Below, piece by piece: positions 9,842 through 62,278 of a stretch of DNA of 64,000 nucleotides. The notes beneath the pieces were generated by a model that was given only the letters and a program-made list of their open reading frames with translations, was not told the origin of the DNA and did no database searches. Each line of letters opens with the position of its first letter. The first letter of the stretch is position 1. A program made the translations under genes and the position numbers. Source of the DNA: Halovenus rubra (GTDB lineage Archaea > Halobacteriota > Halobacteria > Halobacteriales > Haloarculaceae); contig NZ_JAODIY010000013.1 of the NCBI RefSeq assembly GCF_026586665.1, positions 186,001-250,000 of the forward strand, written 5' to 3'.

Positions 9842-10684
9842 TTACAGCTTCGATTCGAGCCCAGCAATCAGCGACTCGTTGCCGACGAATACTGGCGTGC
9901 GGCTGTGGAGACCATCTGGGGTTTTGTCGAGTAGCGACTCTGTCCCATCAGAAGACGCGCCGCCAGCGGTCTCGATAATGTATGCCATCGGCTGCCCTTC
10001 GAACTGGAGGCGGAGTTTTCCGTTGGGTCTGTCGGCAAGCATCGGGTAGCCAAAGAGACCGCCATAGGTGACGACCTGATTTACGTCGGCCACCATCGCC
10101 CCACCATACCGGAGCTTCAGGCGCTCGTCCTCGATATCGTCGACGTACGCCCCAAACTCAGTTGGCCAGTCCGGAACCCTGCCGCCGAATCCATAGACAA
10201 CCGGGTCATCTGGAAGCTGTACATCTTCGCTCAGGACCTCGCGCTCACCGTCTTCGATTAGATACTCAGTGACACTCTCGTCAACAGCAGTGACCATCGT
10301 CGTAATTGGGCCATAGAGGACGTAGCCCGCTGCAACCAGTGCGTCACCGGGTGCCGGGAGCGGTTCGTCATAGATACCGACAATTGTCCCCATGCTGTTG
10401 TTCGATTTGAGATTCGATGAGCCATCGAGTGGATCACAAGCGACGTGATATGCACCCGTGTCAGTGCTAACGCTCTCACGTTCCTCGCTCGCATAGGACC
10501 CGACCTCGGCGAGTGCGAGTAACTCGTCTTCGAGTTGCTCGTCTGCGTACACGTCAGCTGCGAGTTGTTGTTCACCGCTCGGGTTCTCAGCTGCCTCATA
10601 AGAGCGACGGGAGCTAAGGACCGTACGTACGTCTCCCGCGGTCGCTGCAACAGTATCGAAGACCGCCTCGATTGTATCAGTCAT
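9842..10684 (-). CDS. fbp: Class I-type fructose-1,6-bisphosphatase
   Basis: This 280-residue enzyme of the FBPase/inositol-phosphatase fold carries the metal-binding motif CDPLDGSSN (about residues 83-91) and the upstream acidic EE pair (YASEERES). The C-terminal region has the third metal/substrate patch around AYIIETAGGASSDG. It dephosphorylates fructose 1,6-bisphosphate in gluconeogenesis. It starts 21 nt after the aldolase stop codon on the same strand. This aldolase-FBPase pair catalyses two consecutive steps, which strongly supports the assignment over inositol monophosphatase. Confidence 0.93.
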   Translation of the reverse strand: MTDTIEAVFDTVAATAGDVRTVLSSRRSYEAAENPSGEQQLAADVYADEQLEDELLALAEVGSYASEERESVSTDTGAYHVACDPLDGSSNLKSNNSMGTIVGIYDEPLPAPGDALVAAGYVLYGPITTMVTAVDESVTEYLIEDGEREVLSEDVQLPDDPVVYGFGGRVPDWPTEFGAYVDDIEDERLKLRYGGAMVADVNQVVTYGGLFGYPMLADRPNGKLRLQFEGQPMAYIIETAGGASSDGTESLLDKTPDGLHSRTPVFVGNESLIAGLESKL

Positions 10685-10705
10685 ACTCTGGACAGAACCG
10701 TTAGA

Positions 10706-11503
10706 CTACTTGTCAGCAGCAGCGAGTGCCGTGTCGACGGACGATTCCTCGAAGATAACCTCTTCAAGCGCGTCAAGAATGTATTCGGGGTTCTCGCGCT
10801 GGAAGATGTTCCGACCGACCGCCAGCCCCGCACCGCCTGCGTCGATAACGGCTTTGACGCTTTCGAGGAACTCGCGGTCACTCCGTTTGGAGCCACCGGA
10901 CATGATGACTTTGGTCGGCCCAGCCATCTCGATAACGTGTTCCATCGCTTCCTTGCTACCGGGGTATTTGACCTTCGCCACGTCGGCCCCGAGTTCCATC
11001 GCTTGACGTGCCGCATACGCGATGGTATCGGTTTTGGTGTCGTTTTTGACGCCTTGTCCACGCGGGTAGGCCCACACCACAACCGGCATATCATGCTGAC
11101 GGGCAGTTTCCTGAATGTCGCGGAACTCTTCGGCCATCTCGACTTCGTGGTTCGAGCCGCCATAGAGCGTAAAGCCAACCGAGTCGGCACCGACATCCTC
11201 AGCGTAATCGACCGACCAGTTGACTGCGGAGTCGTACTCGCCCATCCAGAGATTCGACGTGCCATTGACCTTCGCCAGCAGGTCGACTTCCTCCTTGTAG
11301 GATGGGTAGTACGCTTCGGCGACGCCTTTCTGTACAGCGAGGCTCGTTACAGCCGGGTGTGTCGCCACCTCAAAGACGCGTTCAGGGTCTGCGCTTTCGG
11401 GTACGTCCTCAAAGTCGACCGGTCCGTGTTCGAGGCCATGGTCGTACGCCAGGATGAGCATCTTTCCGTCCCGCGAAAGTGGTGAGTCGTCGATGGGTCG
11501 CAT
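10706..11503 (-). CDS. fba: Class I fructose-bisphosphate aldolase (archaeal DhnA/FbaB type)
   Basis: This 265-residue TIM-barrel protein is started at ATG 11503 (MRPIDDSPL). AAATAAA at 11529-11535, read as TTTATTT on the minus strand, sits 26-32 nt upstream and fits a leaderless transcript. The motif ILAYDHGLEHGP is typical of archaeal class I aldolases. The Schiff-base Lys lies in VAKVKYPG (about residue 178), and the phosphate-binding loops are MSGGSKRS and GGAGLAVGRN. It condenses DHAP and glyceraldehyde-3-phosphate. The sister function in the fold is ADH synthase for aromatic amino acid synthesis; adjacency to fbp favours the gluconeogenic role. Confidence 0.9.
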   Translation of the reverse strand: MRPIDDSPLSRDGKMLILAYDHGLEHGPVDFEDVPESADPERVFEVATHPAVTSLAVQKGVAEAYYPSYKEEVDLLAKVNGTSNLWMGEYDSAVNWSVDYAEDVGADSVGFTLYGGSNHEVEMAEEFRDIQETARQHDMPVVVWAYPRGQGVKNDTKTDTIAYAARQAMELGADVAKVKYPGSKEAMEHVIEMAGPTKVIMSGGSKRSDREFLESVKAVIDAGGAGLAVGRNIFQRENPEYILDALEEVIFEESSVDTALAAADK

Positions 11504-52384: not shown

Positions 52385-54262
52385 TCAGATCCAGCCATTG
52401 GCGGTGGGCAGTTTGACCACGAACACAGCACCTCCGCAGTTCTCATGCTCCCGTCCAGATTGGTGCTGTTCTCTGTCCTTGACCCAGACCTCTCCCCCAT
52501 AGCTCTGCGTGAGTTGATTGACCAGATAGAGGCCGATACCAGTTCCCTCACTTTCCATTCCGCGCTCACCTTTTCCAAATATTTTGTCTTTCTGCTCGTC
52601 TGGAACGCCGGGTCCGTTATCGAGAACACACAACTGGGCAAACTCATCATCCTGCTCAAGTTGTACTGTCACCGTCATCTCACCGCGGTTGTGCTGGACA
52701 GCGTTGTTTAGGAGGTTCCGAACCACAGACGACAACGTTCCGTTGGCTGAAACCACAGTATCGGTGAGTGACCCGTCGACAGTCAATTCCGCTTCTGGAT
52801 ACCGTGACCGAGCACTCTCTAGCTCGCTTCGTACAATCTCGTCCAGATGAACCGGATTGGTTTTGAGTTCTCCCTGCGTGAGTGTCTGGATTAGCGCTCC
52901 GCTGTTCTCAGTCAGTTCCTGAATGTGCTTGTTGGTCTGTTTTATTCGTCGCACTGTCTCCTGGTGGTCTTCTGACAGCTCGTTCTGGATTTCCTCGGTC
53001 CACAACTGTATCGTCTGCGTGTCGTTCTGGATGTCGTGTCTGAGGATGCGATTGAGAACTTCGAGTTTCTCGCTGAGGTTCTGTAGTTCCTGTTCACGCT
53101 GTTTTCGTTCGGTAATGTTCCGGATTATACCAGTGGTGCCTTCGAAGCGCTCGCCATCGTCGTCCCACAGCAGCGTCAAGTGGTCTTCGGCCGGAAATTC
53201 GCTGCCATCGCTCCGTTGTATATCCAATTCAAGAGTTACTTCGGCGTCTTCATGCTCGTCAAAGATCATTGACCGGACTGTTGACTCGGCCCGCTCAACC
53301 ACTTCGTCGGACTTGATATAGCTCGTGTGCTCCCCGAGTAGCTCTTCGGTATCGTACCCTGTGAGTTCGGTCATTGCGTCGTTCACAAGCTCAAAGTGGC
53401 CCGTTTCATCGAGAACATAGACACCGTCATCGACAGTCTGGATGATCTTCCGATGGCGTTCCAGTTCTTGTTCGCGCTCTTTTCGTTCGGTGATGTCCTG
53501 CATGGTGCCGTTTGCGCCGACCATTTCTCCGTCCTCGTAGAGGGGATCACCGATTGTCCGAACCCAGCGAATGTCGTCGTCGGGTACGTCGATGCGCAAC
53601 TCTAGGTCGTACGGTTCTCCCTCTGTGATGAGACGGTCGAACGCCTCTCTGATCGTGTTCTGATCTTCTGGGTGATAAAAACCGAATCCATCTTCGCCTA
53701 TCGGGTCCGCGTTCTGTGACAGTCCGTGTATCCGGTACATTTCATCAGTCCACTGCTGTGTGTCTGTCCGAAAGTTGATTTTCCAGCCACCGATAGCTGC
53801 GACTTCCTGGGTCTGTTTCAGAAACTCTCTGTTACGTTCGAGTTCACGCTGTCGCTCCCAGCGCTCGACGGCGTACCGGACTGCCCTGATCAGATTCCGT
53901 TCGTTCAATGACTGTTTGTTCAGGTAATCTTGGGCTCCCCTATTGAGTATCTCGACGGCAGCTTGGTCGTCGTCGAGATTAGTCAACACCACGATCGGGA
54001 CATCAGGAAAGCATTCGCGCGCCCGATTGTACGTCTCTGTCCCCTCTGATTCTGGGAGCCCCAAGTCTAACAAAAGCAGATCTATTGCATTATCAGCCAG
54101 AATTGTCACGCCCGCATCGAGTGATTCGGCGTGATGGAAGTTCACGCTATCGGGCAGGAGAGACGAGGAGCTTTCGGTCAGGTGCCTCCGAATTAACCGT
54201 TCGTCGTTTGGGTTGTCCTCCACGAGGAGAACACGCAACGGTGATTCCAGGGACGTTTTCAT
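52385..54262 (-). CDS. Receiver-PAS-PAS histidine kinase
   Basis: The start is taken as ATG 54262 (MKTSLESPL); a GTG at 54271 overlaps the upstream stop and is possible. About 625 residues. A receiver domain (residues 1-130) with VLLVEDNPND and acceptor Asp in LLLLDLGLPE is followed by two PAS domains, a HisKA-like segment with His in ILRHDIQNDTQTI and HATPase_c with NGPGVPDEQ and SEGTGIGLYLVN. It is the third member of the second kinase/regulator module. The upstream receiver gene ends inside its start region. Remnant kinase sequence follows its stop. Confidence 0.9.
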   Translation of the reverse strand: MKTSLESPLRVLLVEDNPNDERLIRRHLTESSSSLLPDSVNFHHAESLDAGVTILADNAIDLLLLDLGLPESEGTETYNRARECFPDVPIVVLTNLDDDQAAVEILNRGAQDYLNKQSLNERNLIRAVRYAVERWERQRELERNREFLKQTQEVAAIGGWKINFRTDTQQWTDEMYRIHGLSQNADPIGEDGFGFYHPEDQNTIREAFDRLITEGEPYDLELRIDVPDDDIRWVRTIGDPLYEDGEMVGANGTMQDITERKEREQELERHRKIIQTVDDGVYVLDETGHFELVNDAMTELTGYDTEELLGEHTSYIKSDEVVERAESTVRSMIFDEHEDAEVTLELDIQRSDGSEFPAEDHLTLLWDDDGERFEGTTGIIRNITERKQREQELQNLSEKLEVLNRILRHDIQNDTQTIQLWTEEIQNELSEDHQETVRRIKQTNKHIQELTENSGALIQTLTQGELKTNPVHLDEIVRSELESARSRYPEAELTVDGSLTDTVVSANGTLSSVVRNLLNNAVQHNRGEMTVTVQLEQDDEFAQLCVLDNGPGVPDEQKDKIFGKGERGMESEGTGIGLYLVNQLTQSYGGEVWVKDREQHQSGREHENCGGAVFVVKLPTANGWI

Positions 54263-54267
54263 ACAAC

Positions 54268-54723
54268 TCACTCCTCGTTCGGTAGTTTCACAACTCTGAA
54301 CCAGAACGACTCCACCTCACGTACTGTTTCTTGGAAATCTTTGTACCCCACTGGCTTGGTCATGTATGCATTCGCGTTGTGTCTGTAGGACTCGATTATG
54401 TCCCGTTCTGCTTCTGAGGAGGTCAGGACGATAACGGGTATCGGCGACAGTTCGGGGTCGTCTTCGAGGTCCTCAAGAACTTCCTTGCCGTCTTTCTGTG
54501 GCATCTCCAGATCCAACAGGATGATGTCTGGTCGTGGTTTGTCCGCGTATTCGCCCTCCTGACGGAGGAATTCCATCGCCTCGATTCCGTTATTGACGAC
54601 GTGGAGATGGTTGACAAACTTGCCTTTATCGAACGCCCGTCGGGTCATCTCTACGTCGTTTGGGTTGTCTTCTGCAAGCAGTATCTCGACTGGCTCCTCG
54701 TTCTCAGCGGCTGTGTTACTCAT
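54268..54723 (-). CDS. Stand-alone receiver (Rcp1-like response regulator)
   Basis: This 151-residue receiver domain has ILLAEDNPNDVEM, phospho-acceptor Asp in IILLDLEMPQKDG, Thr/Ser in VIVLTSSEAERD and Lys in AYMTKPVGY. It lacks an output domain, like the cyanobacterial phytochrome partner Rcp1. It likely shuttles phosphate between the kinase upstream (14-nt spacing) and the hybrid kinase downstream (overlapping). Its sister is at 58323-58763. Confidence 0.93.
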   Translation of the reverse strand: MSNTAAENEEPVEILLAEDNPNDVEMTRRAFDKGKFVNHLHVVNNGIEAMEFLRQEGEYADKPRPDIILLDLEMPQKDGKEVLEDLEDDPELSPIPVIVLTSSEAERDIIESYRHNANAYMTKPVGYKDFQETVREVESFWFRVVKLPNEE

Positions 54724-54737
54724 TGGTTACTATGTGA

Positions 54738-56087
54738 TTAAGTTGCATCTTCTTTGTCTTTACTGATGGTGAAAACGAATGTTGCACCGTCGTCAAGTTC
54801 GGATTCCACCCAGATTTCGCCACCGTGACGCCGGACAATATTGTCACAGATGGCGAGGCCGAGTCCCTTCGCCTGACTCTGGGTCTGGTACTGTTCTCCA
54901 CTCTTGAAGATGCGGAATATTTTCTCTTGCCGGCTCTCTGCGATTCCAGGGCCGTCGTCTTCGACCTCGAACCTGTACTGGTTTGGTTCCTCGCTTCCCC
55001 GTATCTCGATGGTAGCAGGGTCCTCTCCAGAGTGTTCGAGCGCGTTCTTGACGAGATTCTGAAACACCTGATGCAACTGGTTACCGTCTGCCTCGACGGT
55101 AGGAAGGTCTCCAGTCTCGACTGTCCCATCGTGTTCGTCAAGCATGATTTCGAGGTCGGCTACGGTGTCAGCGATCACCTCCTCGGTCTCCACCGGTTCG
55201 AACTCACCACCGCGCGTCGTTACTCGAGAGTAATCCAGCAGGCCGTTTATCATCGACTGCATTCGTTCGCTCCCGGTCACGACAACGTCGATGAACCGCT
55301 GTGCCTCTTCATCTAGGTCCTCGGCGTAATCCTCCGCGAGTATCTCTGTATAGTTGGAAATAGTCCGGAGTGGCTCCTGGAGGTCGTGAGAAGCGACATA
55401 CGCGAACTGTTCGAGTCGTTCGTTCGATTCCCTGAGTTGCGATTCACGCGTTTTCTGTTCAGTAATATCCTGAAAGGTCCCGCGGACACCAACGATTTCA
55501 CCGTCTTCGTATCTGGGTTCGCCTCGCGCTCGCGTCCAGCGGACTTCGCCGTCTGGCCTGACGATGCGGACTTCCTCGTCGTACGGTTCGCCTTCAGTCG
55601 TCGCTTGCTCGACCGCGTCTTGCATCGTTGCCCGGTCCTCAGGGTGATACAGGTCGATAGCCTCCTCGACAGTTGGCTCGAAGTCGGTGTCGACGCCGTG
55701 AATTCGGTAGACTTCTTTTGTCCACCGGAGTGAGTCCGATCGCAAATCAACCTCCCACCCGCCGACATCGGCGACTTCTTGTGTTTCCTTGAGAAAACGG
55801 CTGGTCCGTTCAAGATCAAGCTGAGCCTGTTTTGATTCCGTGATATGTTGTTGGAATCCAGCAAAATGCGTTACTTCGCCATCTTCAGTGGTGACCGGTG
55901 AAATGGAAACACGATTCCAGAATTGGCTACCGTCTTTACGATAGTTGCGGAGCTCAACGGTCACAGAATTAACAGAATCAACGGCGTTTCGCATCGCGGC
56001 GACTGCTTTTTCACTCGTGTCGCTTCCCTGGAGGAATCGACAATTGCGGCCGAGTGCTTCATCTTTGGTATAGCCCGTCATTTCCAC
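54738..56087 (-). CDS. LOV/PAS histidine kinase, downstream part after an in-frame TGA
   Basis: Read from a GTG at 56087 this part has 449 residues, but it starts in the middle of a LOV domain, whose first strand KAPIGITISDPQQDDN lies upstream. The LOV core has GRNCRFLQG, with the photoactive Cys, and NYRKDGSQFWN and HFAGFQQH near its end. A PAS domain, HisKA (SHDLQEPLRTISN) and HATPase_c (DGPGIAES) follow. The frame is the same as that of 56172-56912, separated only by the TGA at 56174-56172. The kinase core is intact. It is either a pseudogene half or needs reading through. Blue light is the family cue. Confidence 0.75.
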   Translation of the reverse strand: MEMTGYTKDEALGRNCRFLQGSDTSEKAVAAMRNAVDSVNSVTVELRNYRKDGSQFWNRVSISPVTTEDGEVTHFAGFQQHITESKQAQLDLERTSRFLKETQEVADVGGWEVDLRSDSLRWTKEVYRIHGVDTDFEPTVEEAIDLYHPEDRATMQDAVEQATTEGEPYDEEVRIVRPDGEVRWTRARGEPRYEDGEIVGVRGTFQDITEQKTRESQLRESNERLEQFAYVASHDLQEPLRTISNYTEILAEDYAEDLDEEAQRFIDVVVTGSERMQSMINGLLDYSRVTTRGGEFEPVETEEVIADTVADLEIMLDEHDGTVETGDLPTVEADGNQLHQVFQNLVKNALEHSGEDPATIEIRGSEEPNQYRFEVEDDGPGIAESRQEKIFRIFKSGEQYQTQSQAKGLGLAICDNIVRRHGGEIWVESELDDGATFVFTISKDKEDAT

Positions 56088-56171
56088 ATATTCCTCATTG
56101 ACATAGATGAGTGGATTGTCGTCCTGTTGTGGATCAGAAATCGTGATTCCAATTGGGGCTTTCTCAATTGC

Positions 56172-56912
56172 TCATGTTTTGTACTCAAGTTCCTGCTCTC
56201 GGTCTTTGCGTGCAGAGATATCTTCGATTATTCCAATGACATACTTTTCATCCTCAATTTCTATAACTTCGGCCGTCGCTGATCCCCAAAACGTCTCCTC
56301 TTGGAACGTTGTGAATTGGGCTTCGTATTGTTCGACCGACCCCGAGTGCTGTAGTTGATCAATGAACTGTTCCCATTCATCTGAGTTTGCATAGAGGTCG
56401 CTCGGAGAGAGCTCCTGAAACGCAGACTTAGATTCCGCATTAAACATCTCTACTGCGGCCTGGTTGATGAAATCGAACCGCCCATCCTCGCCTAGTGTAT
56501 TAATCCCAACGGTCACTGGGAGCGATTCGATTACCTGTTCATACTTTTGAAGTTCTTGTTCTCGGTCTTTGCGTTCACTAATATCCGTGAAAATAATCGA
56601 GTATCCATCCTCATCAGGATAAATCCGAACTTCGAACCACCGATCAATTTCCTCATTGTATCGCTCGAATATTTGCTGTTGACCGGTCTCAGTTGCTTCC
56701 TGAAGTTTGGTTTCTGCAATGGAATTTTGACCTTTAGGAAACGCATCCCAAATATATTCTCCAAGAACAGTCTCTTCAGTCGTATCGAGCAATTGCTCCG
56801 CCCGGGGGTTGATATACGTGTATTCTAAGTCGGCGTTCAGACTGACAACCCCATCGGAAACACGCTCAAGCGCCTTGCTACGGCGTTTCTCTTTTTGGCT
56901 TCCCCCCTCCAT
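56172..56912 (-). CDS. PAS-PAS protein, upstream part of a TGA-interrupted kinase
   Basis: ATG 56912 (MEGGSQKEKRRSK) gives 246 residues to the TGA at 56174-56172; the GTG start at 56960 is less likely. Two PAS domains (about 10-115 and 120-235), with the tails TDISERKDREQ and EDISARKDREQ, precede the stop. The last residues, QELEYKT, run in frame into AIEKAPIGITIS, the start of the LOV domain. On its own it would be a sensor without any output. Confidence 0.7.
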   Translation of the reverse strand: MEGGSQKEKRRSKALERVSDGVVSLNADLEYTYINPRAEQLLDTTEETVLGEYIWDAFPKGQNSIAETKLQEATETGQQQIFERYNEEIDRWFEVRIYPDEDGYSIIFTDISERKDREQELQKYEQVIESLPVTVGINTLGEDGRFDFINQAAVEMFNAESKSAFQELSPSDLYANSDEWEQFIDQLQHSGSVEQYEAQFTTFQEETFWGSATAEVIEIEDEKYVIGIIEDISARKDREQELEYKT

Positions 56913-57230
56913 TGATAATCTATCATGTGTGTAAGTCTGTGACGTAGAAAAAACCCACACTCCAGTCTACGACTTGATTTGTCTGTCCGGTAAGACAAGT
57001 TGCACCACAAAGACAGTTAACATCAAACAGTCTGTTGGAATAAGGAATGTAACCGAAATATCCGGAGTAAAAGTGTAATAAGCAATATTTCCGTAGTCTG
57101 GCTGTTCTCACGTTCGCTGGCTCTGGTGAATCGCCGTACGTGAGTTACCTTTGGTGGGTGATAGCTTGTTTGATGTTGTAGACGGGACAGATCAAGACAG
57201 AGACACTGCTGACCCAACTGCCCACAGGTA

Positions 57231-58322
57231 TCAGGCCGCGTCGAGTTCGAGTACGAACCGGGCCCCCTCTGGGTCGTTGTCCTCGACGTGTACCGCTCCC
57301 CCGTAGGTATCGACCATCAGGTCGACGAAAAACAGTCCGAACCCTGTCCCAGACGAGGATTCACCAGACTCGCCGCGGTTGAAGATTGCTTCCTTGCGTT
57401 CCTTGGGAATCCCGGGACCGTCGTCGGCAACGACGATTTCGACGGTGTCTCCCTGACGCTCAGCAGCAATCTCAACCGAAACTGGGTCAGGCTTCGTGTG
57501 TTCGACGGCGTTGACCAAGAGATTCCGGAGCACATCTAACAGGAGGTCATCAGCAAGTACCTGTATGTCCGAAGCACAGTCTATCGACACAGATACGCCA
57601 TTGCGCATCGCCTCAGCCTCATCGACCAGTTCCGTGACGATATCGGCGACGACAACCTTGTGGATGTCCGGTGTCTCCTCTTCGGTGAGGGTATCCAGCA
57701 CGTTCCTGACCTTCTGAGTCAGATCGACTATATTTTCGCTCCAGTTGAGGACAGTCTCCGCATTTTCACCGTGCTCGCCCTCCAAGTCATCCGCAAGCAT
57801 TCTAGAGTGGACCTGGATCACTTCCATCCCATTCAGCAGGTCGTGACGAAGAATATTATTAAAGAACTCCATTTGGTCGCGCTGGCGGCGAACTTGGCGC
57901 TCGTTTCGTTTCCGCTCGATAGCGTGACGCATCGTCCGAACGATTGTCTTCGGTGTCGTATCGCTTTTAACGAGGTAGTCCTGCGCGCCCGATTGGATGG
58001 CCTCGAGAGCGACTTCATTGTCTTGCAACCCGGTCAGGATGATAACTGGGACATCAAATCCTTCCTCAGCAAAACGGTCGACTGTTTCAGTGCCATTAGA
58101 GTCTGGCAGCCCCAAGTCCAGAAAAACAGCGTCGAAGTTACTTCCCGAGCAGATATCGATAGCTTCAGCGAGTGAGTTGGCACGTGTCAGCTCGATTTCG
58201 TCGACGAAGGCGTATTCAACGCCTTGCTCAAGATCACGACGTACAAACAAGGCATCGTCGTCGTTATCCTCGACAAGGAGCACATCTGCTACCGACAGAT
58301 TGTGGCTCGGCGAACCAGACAT
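57231..58322 (-). CDS. Receiver-histidine kinase hybrid without PAS
   Basis: This 363-residue protein has a receiver domain (LLVEDNDDDALFVRRDL; acceptor Asp in AVFLDLGLPDSNG) at residues about 10-125. A histidine kinase core follows with His in ILRHDLLNGMEVI and HATPase_c with DDGPGIPKER and SSGTGFGLFFVD. Its ATG follows the receiver gene's TAG stop directly. It is the third gene of the first module and parallels 52385-54262, but lacks PAS domains. Confidence 0.92.
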   Translation of the reverse strand: MSGSPSHNLSVADVLLVEDNDDDALFVRRDLEQGVEYAFVDEIELTRANSLAEAIDICSGSNFDAVFLDLGLPDSNGTETVDRFAEEGFDVPVIILTGLQDNEVALEAIQSGAQDYLVKSDTTPKTIVRTMRHAIERKRNERQVRRQRDQMEFFNNILRHDLLNGMEVIQVHSRMLADDLEGEHGENAETVLNWSENIVDLTQKVRNVLDTLTEEETPDIHKVVVADIVTELVDEAEAMRNGVSVSIDCASDIQVLADDLLLDVLRNLLVNAVEHTKPDPVSVEIAAERQGDTVEIVVADDGPGIPKERKEAIFNRGESGESSSGTGFGLFFVDLMVDTYGGAVHVEDNDPEGARFVLELDAA

Positions 58323-58763
58323 CTATGTTGGAAGTTTCACAAAACTTACCCAAAAGTGCTCGATGCTGTCGACGACATTCAGAAATCCATCGAAGTCCAC
58401 GGGTTTTGTCAGATATGCGTTGGCATTCAGTTCGTAACTACGGACGACATCTTCTTCTGCCTCCGATGAGGTCAGCACCACAACGGGTATCGTCTTGAGG
58501 TCGTCGTCTGCACGCATTTTTTCGAGGACTTCGTCCCCGTCCATCTTCTGCAGGTTCAAATCCAACAGAACGATATCGGGCCGCGGAGCATCGGTGTACT
58601 CACCTTCCCGGCGGAGAAACTCCATCGCGTCTACCCCATCTCTGACGATATGGAGATTGTTTGTTACTTTCTGTTGTTCGAATGCTTTCTTCGTGAGGAA
58701 AACGTCGTCTTGGTCGTCTTCGACAAGGAGTATTTCGACCATCTGCGCGTTTGAATTGTTCAT
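58323..58763 (-). CDS. Stand-alone receiver (Rcp1-like response regulator)
   Basis: This 146-residue receiver domain has ILLVEDDQDDVFL, acceptor Asp in IVLLDLNLQKMDG, VVLTSSEAEED and Lys in AYLTKPVDFDG. There is no output domain. It lies 27 nt downstream of the large PAS kinase and abuts the receiver-kinase, so it probably links them. It is closely similar to 54268-54723 in length and motif order, for example VTNNLHIVRDG and FVNHLHVVNNG. Confidence 0.93.
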   Translation of the reverse strand: MNNSNAQMVEILLVEDDQDDVFLTKKAFEQQKVTNNLHIVRDGVDAMEFLRREGEYTDAPRPDIVLLDLNLQKMDGDEVLEKMRADDDLKTIPVVVLTSSEAEEDVVRSYELNANAYLTKPVDFDGFLNVVDSIEHFWVSFVKLPT

Positions 58764-58790
58764 GATAGTGTGTACTGCGCTGCCCCTGCT

Positions 58791-61700
58791 TCACCTAGTA
58801 TATCGTTTCGGAAGCGTAAAGTTAAATCTTGACCCGTTGGCGTCCGATTCGACCCAGATGTCTCCGTGGTGGCGGGAGACAATGCGCTCACAGATTGCCA
58901 GCCCGATCCCGGATTCGCCGCTGTCGTCTCCCTTATCGGTTGCTTGCTGGAATATCTCGAAGATGCGGTCCTGTTGTGCTTCGGGAACACCGGGTCCATT
59001 GTCGCTGACACTGAATTGCCAGGCGTCGCCGATATCCTTGCAGTGTATATCTACTTCTGGTGGACTTCCACCGTGATTAATCGCGTTTTTCACCAAGTTC
59101 TGAAACACTTGTCCAAGTTGATCTTTGTCGGCAGTGACTCTCGGGAGCGAGTCGTAGTCGATGTCGGTACCGGATTCGTCAATGAGGACACCAAGCCCGT
59201 CCAGCGTTTTTTCGACCACCTCTGTTGTGTCCACCTCGACGAACTCGCCGCCCTGGGATTCGACTCGGGAGTACTGCAGGAGAGCACTTATCATCGATGA
59301 CATCCGTGACGCGTTGTCTTCGGCGCGTTCGATGTAGAACTGCCCCTCTTGATCTATCTCGTCGTGATACTCTGATTCGAGAAGGGCCAGATAGCTAGTC
59401 ACGCTTCGGAGCGGTTCCTGCAGGTCGTGAGAGGCGATGTAGGCGAACTCTTGGAGGTTCTTGTTCGACTCTTCGAGTTTGTCCTTGTAGGTTTCGAGCG
59501 CTTGCTCGCGCGTTGCCCGCTCGAAAGCAGCCTCGGCGTTGCTGGCGATAATCGAGATGAGGTCCTCATCTGTGGAATCGAAGCTATCGGGTTGCATGCT
59601 AGCTACGATCAGCATCCCAAACTTGCCAATCGGAACCATCACGCACCCCCGTAGTGGTTCCCCTGGTGCACCGGCTTCATCAAGTAACTGGTAATTCTCG
59701 ACCAGTTTCGACTCGCCGCTCCGGAACACAGCCATCTCCTCTGTTCCGGACGGGATCGCCGGGAGGCTGTCGAGCGCATCACCACCTGTCTGTTCCAGTA
59801 CCTGTCCTGTCGCTGCCCACGGAACTAGCTTGTCACTGTCGTCATCGTACCTCGAAACCGCGACCAGCGGTACGCCAAGTGACTCATTAGCGATATCAAC
59901 GACAGACTCCGCTACTTCCTCGGTCGTTTTCGCATAGGAGAGTTTTTCGAGCGCCTCGTTGATCATCTCCAATTGCCGTTCTCTCCGCTTCTGGCCGGTA
60001 ATGTCGGTAACGATTCCGACCATCTTTTGTGGACCGTCTCCTTCCACGACTTCACCACTTGCATAGCCCCAGCGTTGTTCGCCGTCGTCGCGCTGAATGC
60101 GGTACTCCGTTTCGTATAGCTCGTCGTTCTCGGCAGCCGTCTCGAGCGCCCTCTCGACGCCAGGCCGATCTTCCGGATGCACGCGTTTGGCGAACGCCTC
60201 AAGCGTTCCCTCGAACGTTCCCGGTTCCAGACCGAACAACTGCTTCATCGATTCGGTCCAGGTTAACTCGTCAGTCTCTATATTCCACTCCCAAACACCA
60301 GTCTCGGTTCCCGCCAGAGCGAGGTCTAGCCGGTGTTTGGCTTCACGTAGTTCGCGTTCACGCTCCCTGCGTTCGGTGATATCCCGAGACGAAGCGACGA
60401 CAGAAACGACCTCGCCGTCGTCGTCACGCACCGGCCGGAACGACCCACTGACAATAATTCGTTCGCCGTCACCGAGGGAATGTTCCGACTCGAACTCAAC
60501 GTACTCACCAGCAACCGCCCGGTCAATCCACTGTTCAACGTCGTTCTGGAGGGCAGTATCGTGGTTCCACCATGGCGTCTCCGAGAAGAGTATTCCCTCG
60601 ATTTGTTCACGAGTTGCTGGCACGGAGTCGACTGCCGTTTTGTTTACTCGCTGGACGACCCCCTCAGTGTCGAGAACGCCGACCAACATCTGCGGATCGT
60701 TAAATACGGCACCGAACTGCCGCTCACTACGCTTCACGTCGAGTTCTGCCTGCTTCCGGTCATCGATATCGATATGGATGCCGGCAGCCCTCGTAGGCTC
60801 TCCGTCGTCGTCCCGTTCGACGACCTGGCCGGTAGTCCAGACCCACTTCCAGTTCCCTGATTTCGTCTGCATCCGAATCTCACTCTCGTAAAACTCCGAC
60901 TCGCCTCTCATATGAGCCTCCAGTGCCGCAGTCGCTGTCTCCAGATCTGTGGGGTGGACGAGCTGTTCCCATATCTGGAAATCAAACTCTAACTCGTCTC
61001 TGCGATATCCAAGCATCGATGCCCACGCTTCGTTGAAAATCACCTCATCTGTCTCAATATCCCAGTCCCAGACTCCAATTCCGGCACCATCGACGGCAAG
61101 GTCGAGTCGCTCCTGCAGTTTCTTTAGACGCTGCTCGCGCTCTTTGCGCTCGGTGATGTCTCGGGCGTGACTGAGAAATCTGTCTTTTTCATCTGTTTCC
61201 AGTGGCGTGACGCGGACATCAACTGGATACGTGCTGCCGTCCGAACACTGATGGCGACCCTCAATCTCAATCGTCTGTCCGTTGGATTTGACCTTCGAGA
61301 GGAGTTCCTGTGCGTCGTCTTGGTCGACATTTGCGTCGATCTCTGCGGCCTCCATCTCCAGAAGTTCCGCACGGGAGTAGCCCAGCTTCTCTGCTGCCTT
61401 TTCGTTTACATCTGTGAACTTCCCAAACTCATCCTGGACGAACATCGGATCGGGTGCCTCGTCGAAGAACTGCTCGTCCCATTCTGGTTCCGGCTCACTC
61501 CGCTCGGTTTTCTCTCCCGCAACGATAACTGCACCTGTGGCGGTTCCTGTCTCACAGGGCGAAAAGCGATATTCTCTGGTGGCCGTCCCAGTCTGAAGCG
61601 AAACATCGAGTTCAACTTTCACCGGGAATTCTGTTTTTGCGGTCTCGTTGTAGACTGTCTCCAATGCCTGCTCAAATTTTGTAGGACCCTCGTCATCGGT

Positions 61701-61901
61701 GGCGATTTGCTCTACCAAATCCATTATGTGCCCGCCACGGACCGTCTCCAGTGAGACAGCAGGGTGCTGAAGCGACGACTGGTTGGTATAACACAGATCC
61801 TGATCGCTATCGAGAAGATATGCCACTTCAGAAATACTATCTACTATTGGTTTGTATTGGCTCGCGTCTGGTGTTTGTCCACTATGTCCTTCTGCAGTCA
61901 T
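58791..61901 (-). CDS. Five-PAS, GAF histidine kinase
   Basis: ATG 61901 (MTAEGHSGQT) gives 1036 residues; GTTTTATTAC at about 61925-61934 is the TATA box. Five PAS domains follow in series (YKPIVDSISEVAYLLD; EWDEQFFDEAPDPMFV; RLDLAVDGAGIGVWDW; FGAVFNDPQMLVGV; RLDLALAGTETGVWEW), then a GAF domain (about 655-800). HisKA (SHDLQEPLRSVTSY) and HATPase_c (DNGPGVPEAQ; DSGESGIGLAI) end it. It is soluble, with no membrane segment. It heads the first three-gene module of the signalling island. PAS domains 3 and 5 are closely alike, suggesting internal duplication. Confidence 0.93.
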   Translation of the reverse strand: MTAEGHSGQTPDASQYKPIVDSISEVAYLLDSDQDLCYTNQSSLQHPAVSLETVRGGHIMDLVEQIATDDEGPTKFEQALETVYNETAKTEFPVKVELDVSLQTGTATREYRFSPCETGTATGAVIVAGEKTERSEPEPEWDEQFFDEAPDPMFVQDEFGKFTDVNEKAAEKLGYSRAELLEMEAAEIDANVDQDDAQELLSKVKSNGQTIEIEGRHQCSDGSTYPVDVRVTPLETDEKDRFLSHARDITERKEREQRLKKLQERLDLAVDGAGIGVWDWDIETDEVIFNEAWASMLGYRRDELEFDFQIWEQLVHPTDLETATAALEAHMRGESEFYESEIRMQTKSGNWKWVWTTGQVVERDDDGEPTRAAGIHIDIDDRKQAELDVKRSERQFGAVFNDPQMLVGVLDTEGVVQRVNKTAVDSVPATREQIEGILFSETPWWNHDTALQNDVEQWIDRAVAGEYVEFESEHSLGDGERIIVSGSFRPVRDDDGEVVSVVASSRDITERRERERELREAKHRLDLALAGTETGVWEWNIETDELTWTESMKQLFGLEPGTFEGTLEAFAKRVHPEDRPGVERALETAAENDELYETEYRIQRDDGEQRWGYASGEVVEGDGPQKMVGIVTDITGQKRRERQLEMINEALEKLSYAKTTEEVAESVVDIANESLGVPLVAVSRYDDDSDKLVPWAATGQVLEQTGGDALDSLPAIPSGTEEMAVFRSGESKLVENYQLLDEAGAPGEPLRGCVMVPIGKFGMLIVASMQPDSFDSTDEDLISIIASNAEAAFERATREQALETYKDKLEESNKNLQEFAYIASHDLQEPLRSVTSYLALLESEYHDEIDQEGQFYIERAEDNASRMSSMISALLQYSRVESQGGEFVEVDTTEVVEKTLDGLGVLIDESGTDIDYDSLPRVTADKDQLGQVFQNLVKNAINHGGSPPEVDIHCKDIGDAWQFSVSDNGPGVPEAQQDRIFEIFQQATDKGDDSGESGIGLAICERIVSRHHGDIWVESDANGSRFNFTLPKRYTR

Positions 61902-62278
61902 TCGAAATGTTACGTGCTCTACCGGTAATAAAACCAATCCTGGGACTAGGTGTCAGATCCACATTCTTTGCAATGGCCGATTGATTACTGGTGTGGAACG
62001 TCTCCTGAATGTAGTGAACCACGGGACGGAACCACCGCGCGTCAAAATCGCTCGGTTTCCGAACGAAAGCACCAACATTGCAGGAGCGACGCCATAAAAT
62101 AGGATTAGAGGCCCTCTAAGTGAGTGTTTGGAGCGTAAAATGTAGCATGGGCGCTGCAGGCTTGCGTTCGAGCGTCGAACGAATCGACCTTTTGGCCGTG
62201 AGGCGGCCGAATTCGGGCGCCAGAGTGCGCGATTCGAACCCGAAAATATGTCGTCTATACCGAGGCTGAAATCACTGA
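61902..62278. other. Intergenic region with stacked hairpins, kinase promoter at left end
   Basis: No gene is seen in this 377-nt gap. The minus-strand kinase promoter is at 61925-61934. At 62167-62244 a GC-rich block has three stems: TTCGA-GCG-TCGAA (62167-62179), GGCCG-TGAGG-CGGCC (62194-62208) and TTCGGG...CCCGAA (62212-62244) enclosing GCGC-CAGAGT-GCGC (62217-62230). It may be a terminator or a small structured RNA. Confidence 0.45.

Follow-up and report, generated by a model that had tools for sequence, protein, structure and literature searches.

A single in-frame TGA before the LOV domain probably disables a PAS/LOV sensor histidine kinase gene of Halovenus rubra

In the genome of Halovenus rubra, a gene for a PAS/LOV sensor histidine kinase is interrupted by one in-frame TGA just before its LOV domain, and this is probably a recent nonsense substitution, seen so far in this genome alone, in one of the many such kinases of haloarchaea. 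Loss of the intact light-sensing kinase is the outcome with the best support. The window (the whole 64,000 nt stretch that was analysed) lies on contig 5 of a draft assembly of 48 contigs (3.57 Mb, 98.7% complete), and the features referred to below, all on the minus strand, are the following.

54738–56912, minus strand: interrupted gene, PAS-PAS-(TGA)-LOV-PAS-HisKA-HATPase, 724 codons if read through, ending at TAA 54738–54740
56175–56912, minus strand: open part 5' of the TGA; 246 aa with two PAS domains and without an output domain
56172–56174, minus strand: the in-frame TGA, a sense codon (mostly Arg) in relatives
56088–56171, minus strand: 28-codon stretch from the TGA to the first downstream GTG, where the LOV domain begins; protein identity to the closest relative 71%
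55810–56171, minus strand: LOV domain with GRNCRFLQG (Pfam and PDB matches)
54738–56087, minus strand: downstream ORF with LOV remnant, PAS, HisKA and HATPase; start GTG, or ATG at 56081
54268–54723, minus strand: single-domain response regulator directly downstream of the kinase gene, its likely partner
52385–54271, 57231–58322 and 58791–61937, minus strand: PAS histidine kinases or regulator-kinase hybrids
54268–54723 and 58323–58763, minus strand: single-domain response regulators of the same run

The TGA (56174–56172) is the sole stop within an otherwise open frame (56912–54741), and ORF translation from the ATG at 56912 to the final TAA revealed neither frameshifts nor further stops. Across the TGA the translation reads ...REQELEYKT-(stop)-AIEKAPIGITISDP..., so the original prediction of a single in-frame stop ahead of the LOV domain, with both pieces sharing a frame, was borne out, although the upstream piece as it was delimited there (56172–56912) took in the TGA itself. 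Pfam places two PAS domains 5' of the TGA and a PAS/LOV domain immediately 3' of it, followed by a further PAS domain, HisKA (5.5e-14) and HATPase_c (3.7e-28), the last two being the hallmarks of a sensor histidine kinase. The LOV core had been described as kept, and GRNCRFLQG does match the photoreceptor motif GXNCRFLQG with its adduct cysteine; the NY...FWN...GFQ residues are also retained, and the domain is a putative blue-light photoreceptor. Its top PDB matches are YtvA-type LOV photoreceptors (E about 1e-32). YtvA has a STAS output domain and no kinase. The LOV domain of YtvA (PDB 2pr5) and that of the Halovenus rubra gene are alike in sequence and signature residues. No kinase or photoreceptor equivalog of NCBIfam scored above its cut-off. 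The haloarchaeal PAS/LOV sensor histidine kinases of Lake Diamante (PMC12202551) likewise carry a LOV domain among several PAS domains on the N-terminal side, a C-terminal histidine kinase and GXNCRFLQG, but the Halovenus rubra gene differs from them in being broken by one TGA directly before LOV.

The closest relative found is a gene of another genome of the same family (G131, contig 6; L131:6793-9789), which shares the PAS-PAS-LOV beginning and can be aligned from its own ATG, which coincides with the ATG at 56912, straight through the TGA to residue 368 (63% identity, one single-residue gap). It has no stop, continues after LOV with other sensor domains and another kinase part, and shares no neighbourhood that we could see. 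At the position of the TGA it has Arg (CGC), and a sense codon is present in 28 of 28 aligned LOV rows, which were taken from the loci compared and include a few near-duplicates: 19 have Arg, two of them as CGA, and the others Gln, Glu, Asn, Lys, Gly or Thr. The guess that relatives would have a sense codon such as Arg at this position is therefore supported, and the codon ancestral to the stop may have been one for Arg. Comparison with orthologs had been recommended, and neither the closest relative nor any of the 28 LOV rows has a TGA at the equivalent position. Since relatives align straight through the stop, the split frame is not a matter of chance. Apparent shared TGAs in matches from two other genomes (G007 and G003) were rejected, as the frames concerned (L052, L054) end normally past the kinase domain. 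A full-length ortholog was found in none of 18 genus, 146 family and 391 class genomes, the family and class searches having used only the first three domains as query and the class genomes being an even draw from a larger group, cut at 1e-60. A virus scan found no relative, and a plasmid search returned partial relatives only. The gene thus carries an in-frame stop that is absent from relatives and removes essential domains, and no difference is evident from prokaryotic single-nonsense pseudogenes, which have the same one in-frame stop, intact frame and sense codon in relatives.

Both sides of the stop have been conserved to the same degree. Compared with the G131 relative, dN is 0.265 on the 5' side and 0.261 on the 3' side, and over the 28-codon gap that separates the TGA from the first GTG 3' of it, protein identity is 71%; synonymous sites are saturated (pS about 0.76–0.79), so these distances are blind to any relaxation of selection since the stop arose. 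The equal dN values and the conserved gap indicate one continuous chain under long-term selection, and they also argue that no independent second gene has evolved 3' of the TGA. This bears directly on a reading, which we regard as improbable, in which the locus now specifies two proteins, one of them PAS-PAS and the other a separate PAS-kinase, begun in the former LOV domain and uncoupled from light. The ORF that had been delimited from GTG 56087 does retain PAS, HisKA and HATPase_c, and a GAGG lies five bases 5' of that GTG, with ATG 56081 as an alternative start. However, these starts, the first on offer, lie inside the LOV domain, 28–30 codons past the TGA, the codons before the GTG are conserved like the remainder, and at this place the closest relative (ERFEEITGY) lacks a start codon. 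The GAGG is also no more than part of the codons GAG GAA, and an ATG overlapping the stop (ATGA) gives an out-of-frame reading of only three codons. In terms of LOV structure, a kinase begun at GTG 56087 or ATG 56081 is without the first LOV strands, and such a product could therefore not be a normal light sensor.

Under a nonsense substitution, translation from ATG 56912 would end after the two PAS domains, giving a protein of 246 aa with no kinase, and the LOV domain and kinase would then not be made; alternatively, the kinase part might be made weakly from the internal GTG or ATG, without a working light sensor. Most likely the gene has become a pseudogene or, at most, encodes a PAS-PAS piece together with a PAS-kinase that is poorly started. 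What speaks against loss by a nonsense substitution is that the sequence 3' of the TGA is free of further lesions, with its LOV and kinase motifs preserved, a state that readthrough or a sequencing error would also explain.

An error in the consensus sequence or assembly, with the gene intact in the organism, would require one base difference only in a frame that is otherwise perfect, and the assembly is a draft. A codon-usage scan for stops flanked in-frame by coding-like sequence was run over 743 kb (contig 5 and most of contig 34); it requires 80 codons on each side and is insensitive to frameshifts and short genes. Among its four candidates only the TGA at 56174–56172 lacks a near start, and within those limits the scan revealed no second in-frame gene interruption, which argues against error; we judge this explanation possible but unlikely, and the stop is probably real in the cell. 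The three other candidates proved to be ordinary adjacent genes with a new start within 3–7 codons, which from their sequences we take to be prefoldin-like and FtsY-like genes, RNA polymerase A' and A'', and aldolase and fructose bisphosphatase. At about position 10708 of the window (contig 5, 196708), the site of the last of these pairs, genes for a class I aldolase-like and a fructose-1,6-bisphosphatase-like protein lie in the same frame with one TAG between them; a split gene was rejected there, the new start being 7 codons past the TAG.

Loss, splitting and readthrough had been offered without ranking, and the evidence now favours loss and makes two well-formed proteins unlikely, while readthrough gains no positive support. 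Programmed or leaky readthrough of the UGA, yielding a small amount of full-length light-sensing kinase, would suit the intact frame and motifs 3' of the stop, and prokaryotic in-frame stops have been argued in a survey to be often read through, if short-lived (PMC7918605). Against this, no relative shares the TGA, a local stem-loop was rejected because folding at the stop lies at the shuffled mean (z 0.09), and the G that follows the TGA is what most often follows real TGA stops in the sampled genome too (44/124). UGA does not appear to be reassigned, as TGA is the commonest stop among 273 scored ORFs (TGA 124, TAA 101, TAG 48). No UCA anticodon and no suppressor tRNA was found among the tRNAs typed by ARAGORN at 42 of 43 tRNA places; the remaining place (L173) received no call and is perhaps an intron-bearing tRNA-Trp, a tRNA otherwise missing from the typed set. 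Selenocysteine had been thought unlikely, and this holds all the more since its synthesis machinery was not detected: SepSecS was not found in the genome by a search that does detect that of Methanocaldococcus jannaschii, and tRNA-Sec models matched only below cut-off, at the places of ordinary tRNAs. A review of archaeal recoding describes how stops are redefined for selenocysteine and pyrrolysine (PMC8211752); neither it nor the survey lends this TGA special support. We therefore consider readthrough very improbable, and a haloarchaeon that makes a little full-length blue-light kinase by leaky UGA readthrough, beside a PAS-PAS fragment, is more improbable still.

The affected gene is probably a mosaic, redundant sensor kinase. 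Its best matches differ by part, being the G131 relative for the first three domains, a second genome (G011, 81% DNA identity) for the third, non-LOV PAS domain and a third (G031, 73%) for the kinase; third-position GC is 0.44–0.47 in PAS-PAS-LOV and 0.62–0.63 in the PAS-kinase. This jump and the part-wise matches suggest that domains have been shuffled near 55800. The G131 relative is flanked by IS110-type transposase-like and TnpB-type-like genes (L131:5490-6488 and 10059-11204), hinting at mobility of such kinases. In Halovenus rubra, the response-regulator gene begins 14 bases downstream of the kinase gene, and both belong to a minus-strand run (52385–61937) in which PAS histidine kinases or regulator-kinase hybrids alternate with single-domain response regulators. 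Other LOV-domain genes occur in the same genome (L002, L007), so the loss may be tolerated.

A nonsense substitution that is probably recent, with function likely lost, is most likely an event of an ordinary kind, in which a spare gene is disabled or shortened; nothing specific was found in the literature on stops in haloarchaeal kinases. If the full-length protein were made, the case would carry greater weight, as UGA read as a standard amino acid is not among the archaeal cases given in those passages of the recoding review that were consulted (PMC8211752). Otherwise the gene illustrates, at most, how light-sensing kinases come and go in haloarchaea, where many similar copies are present.
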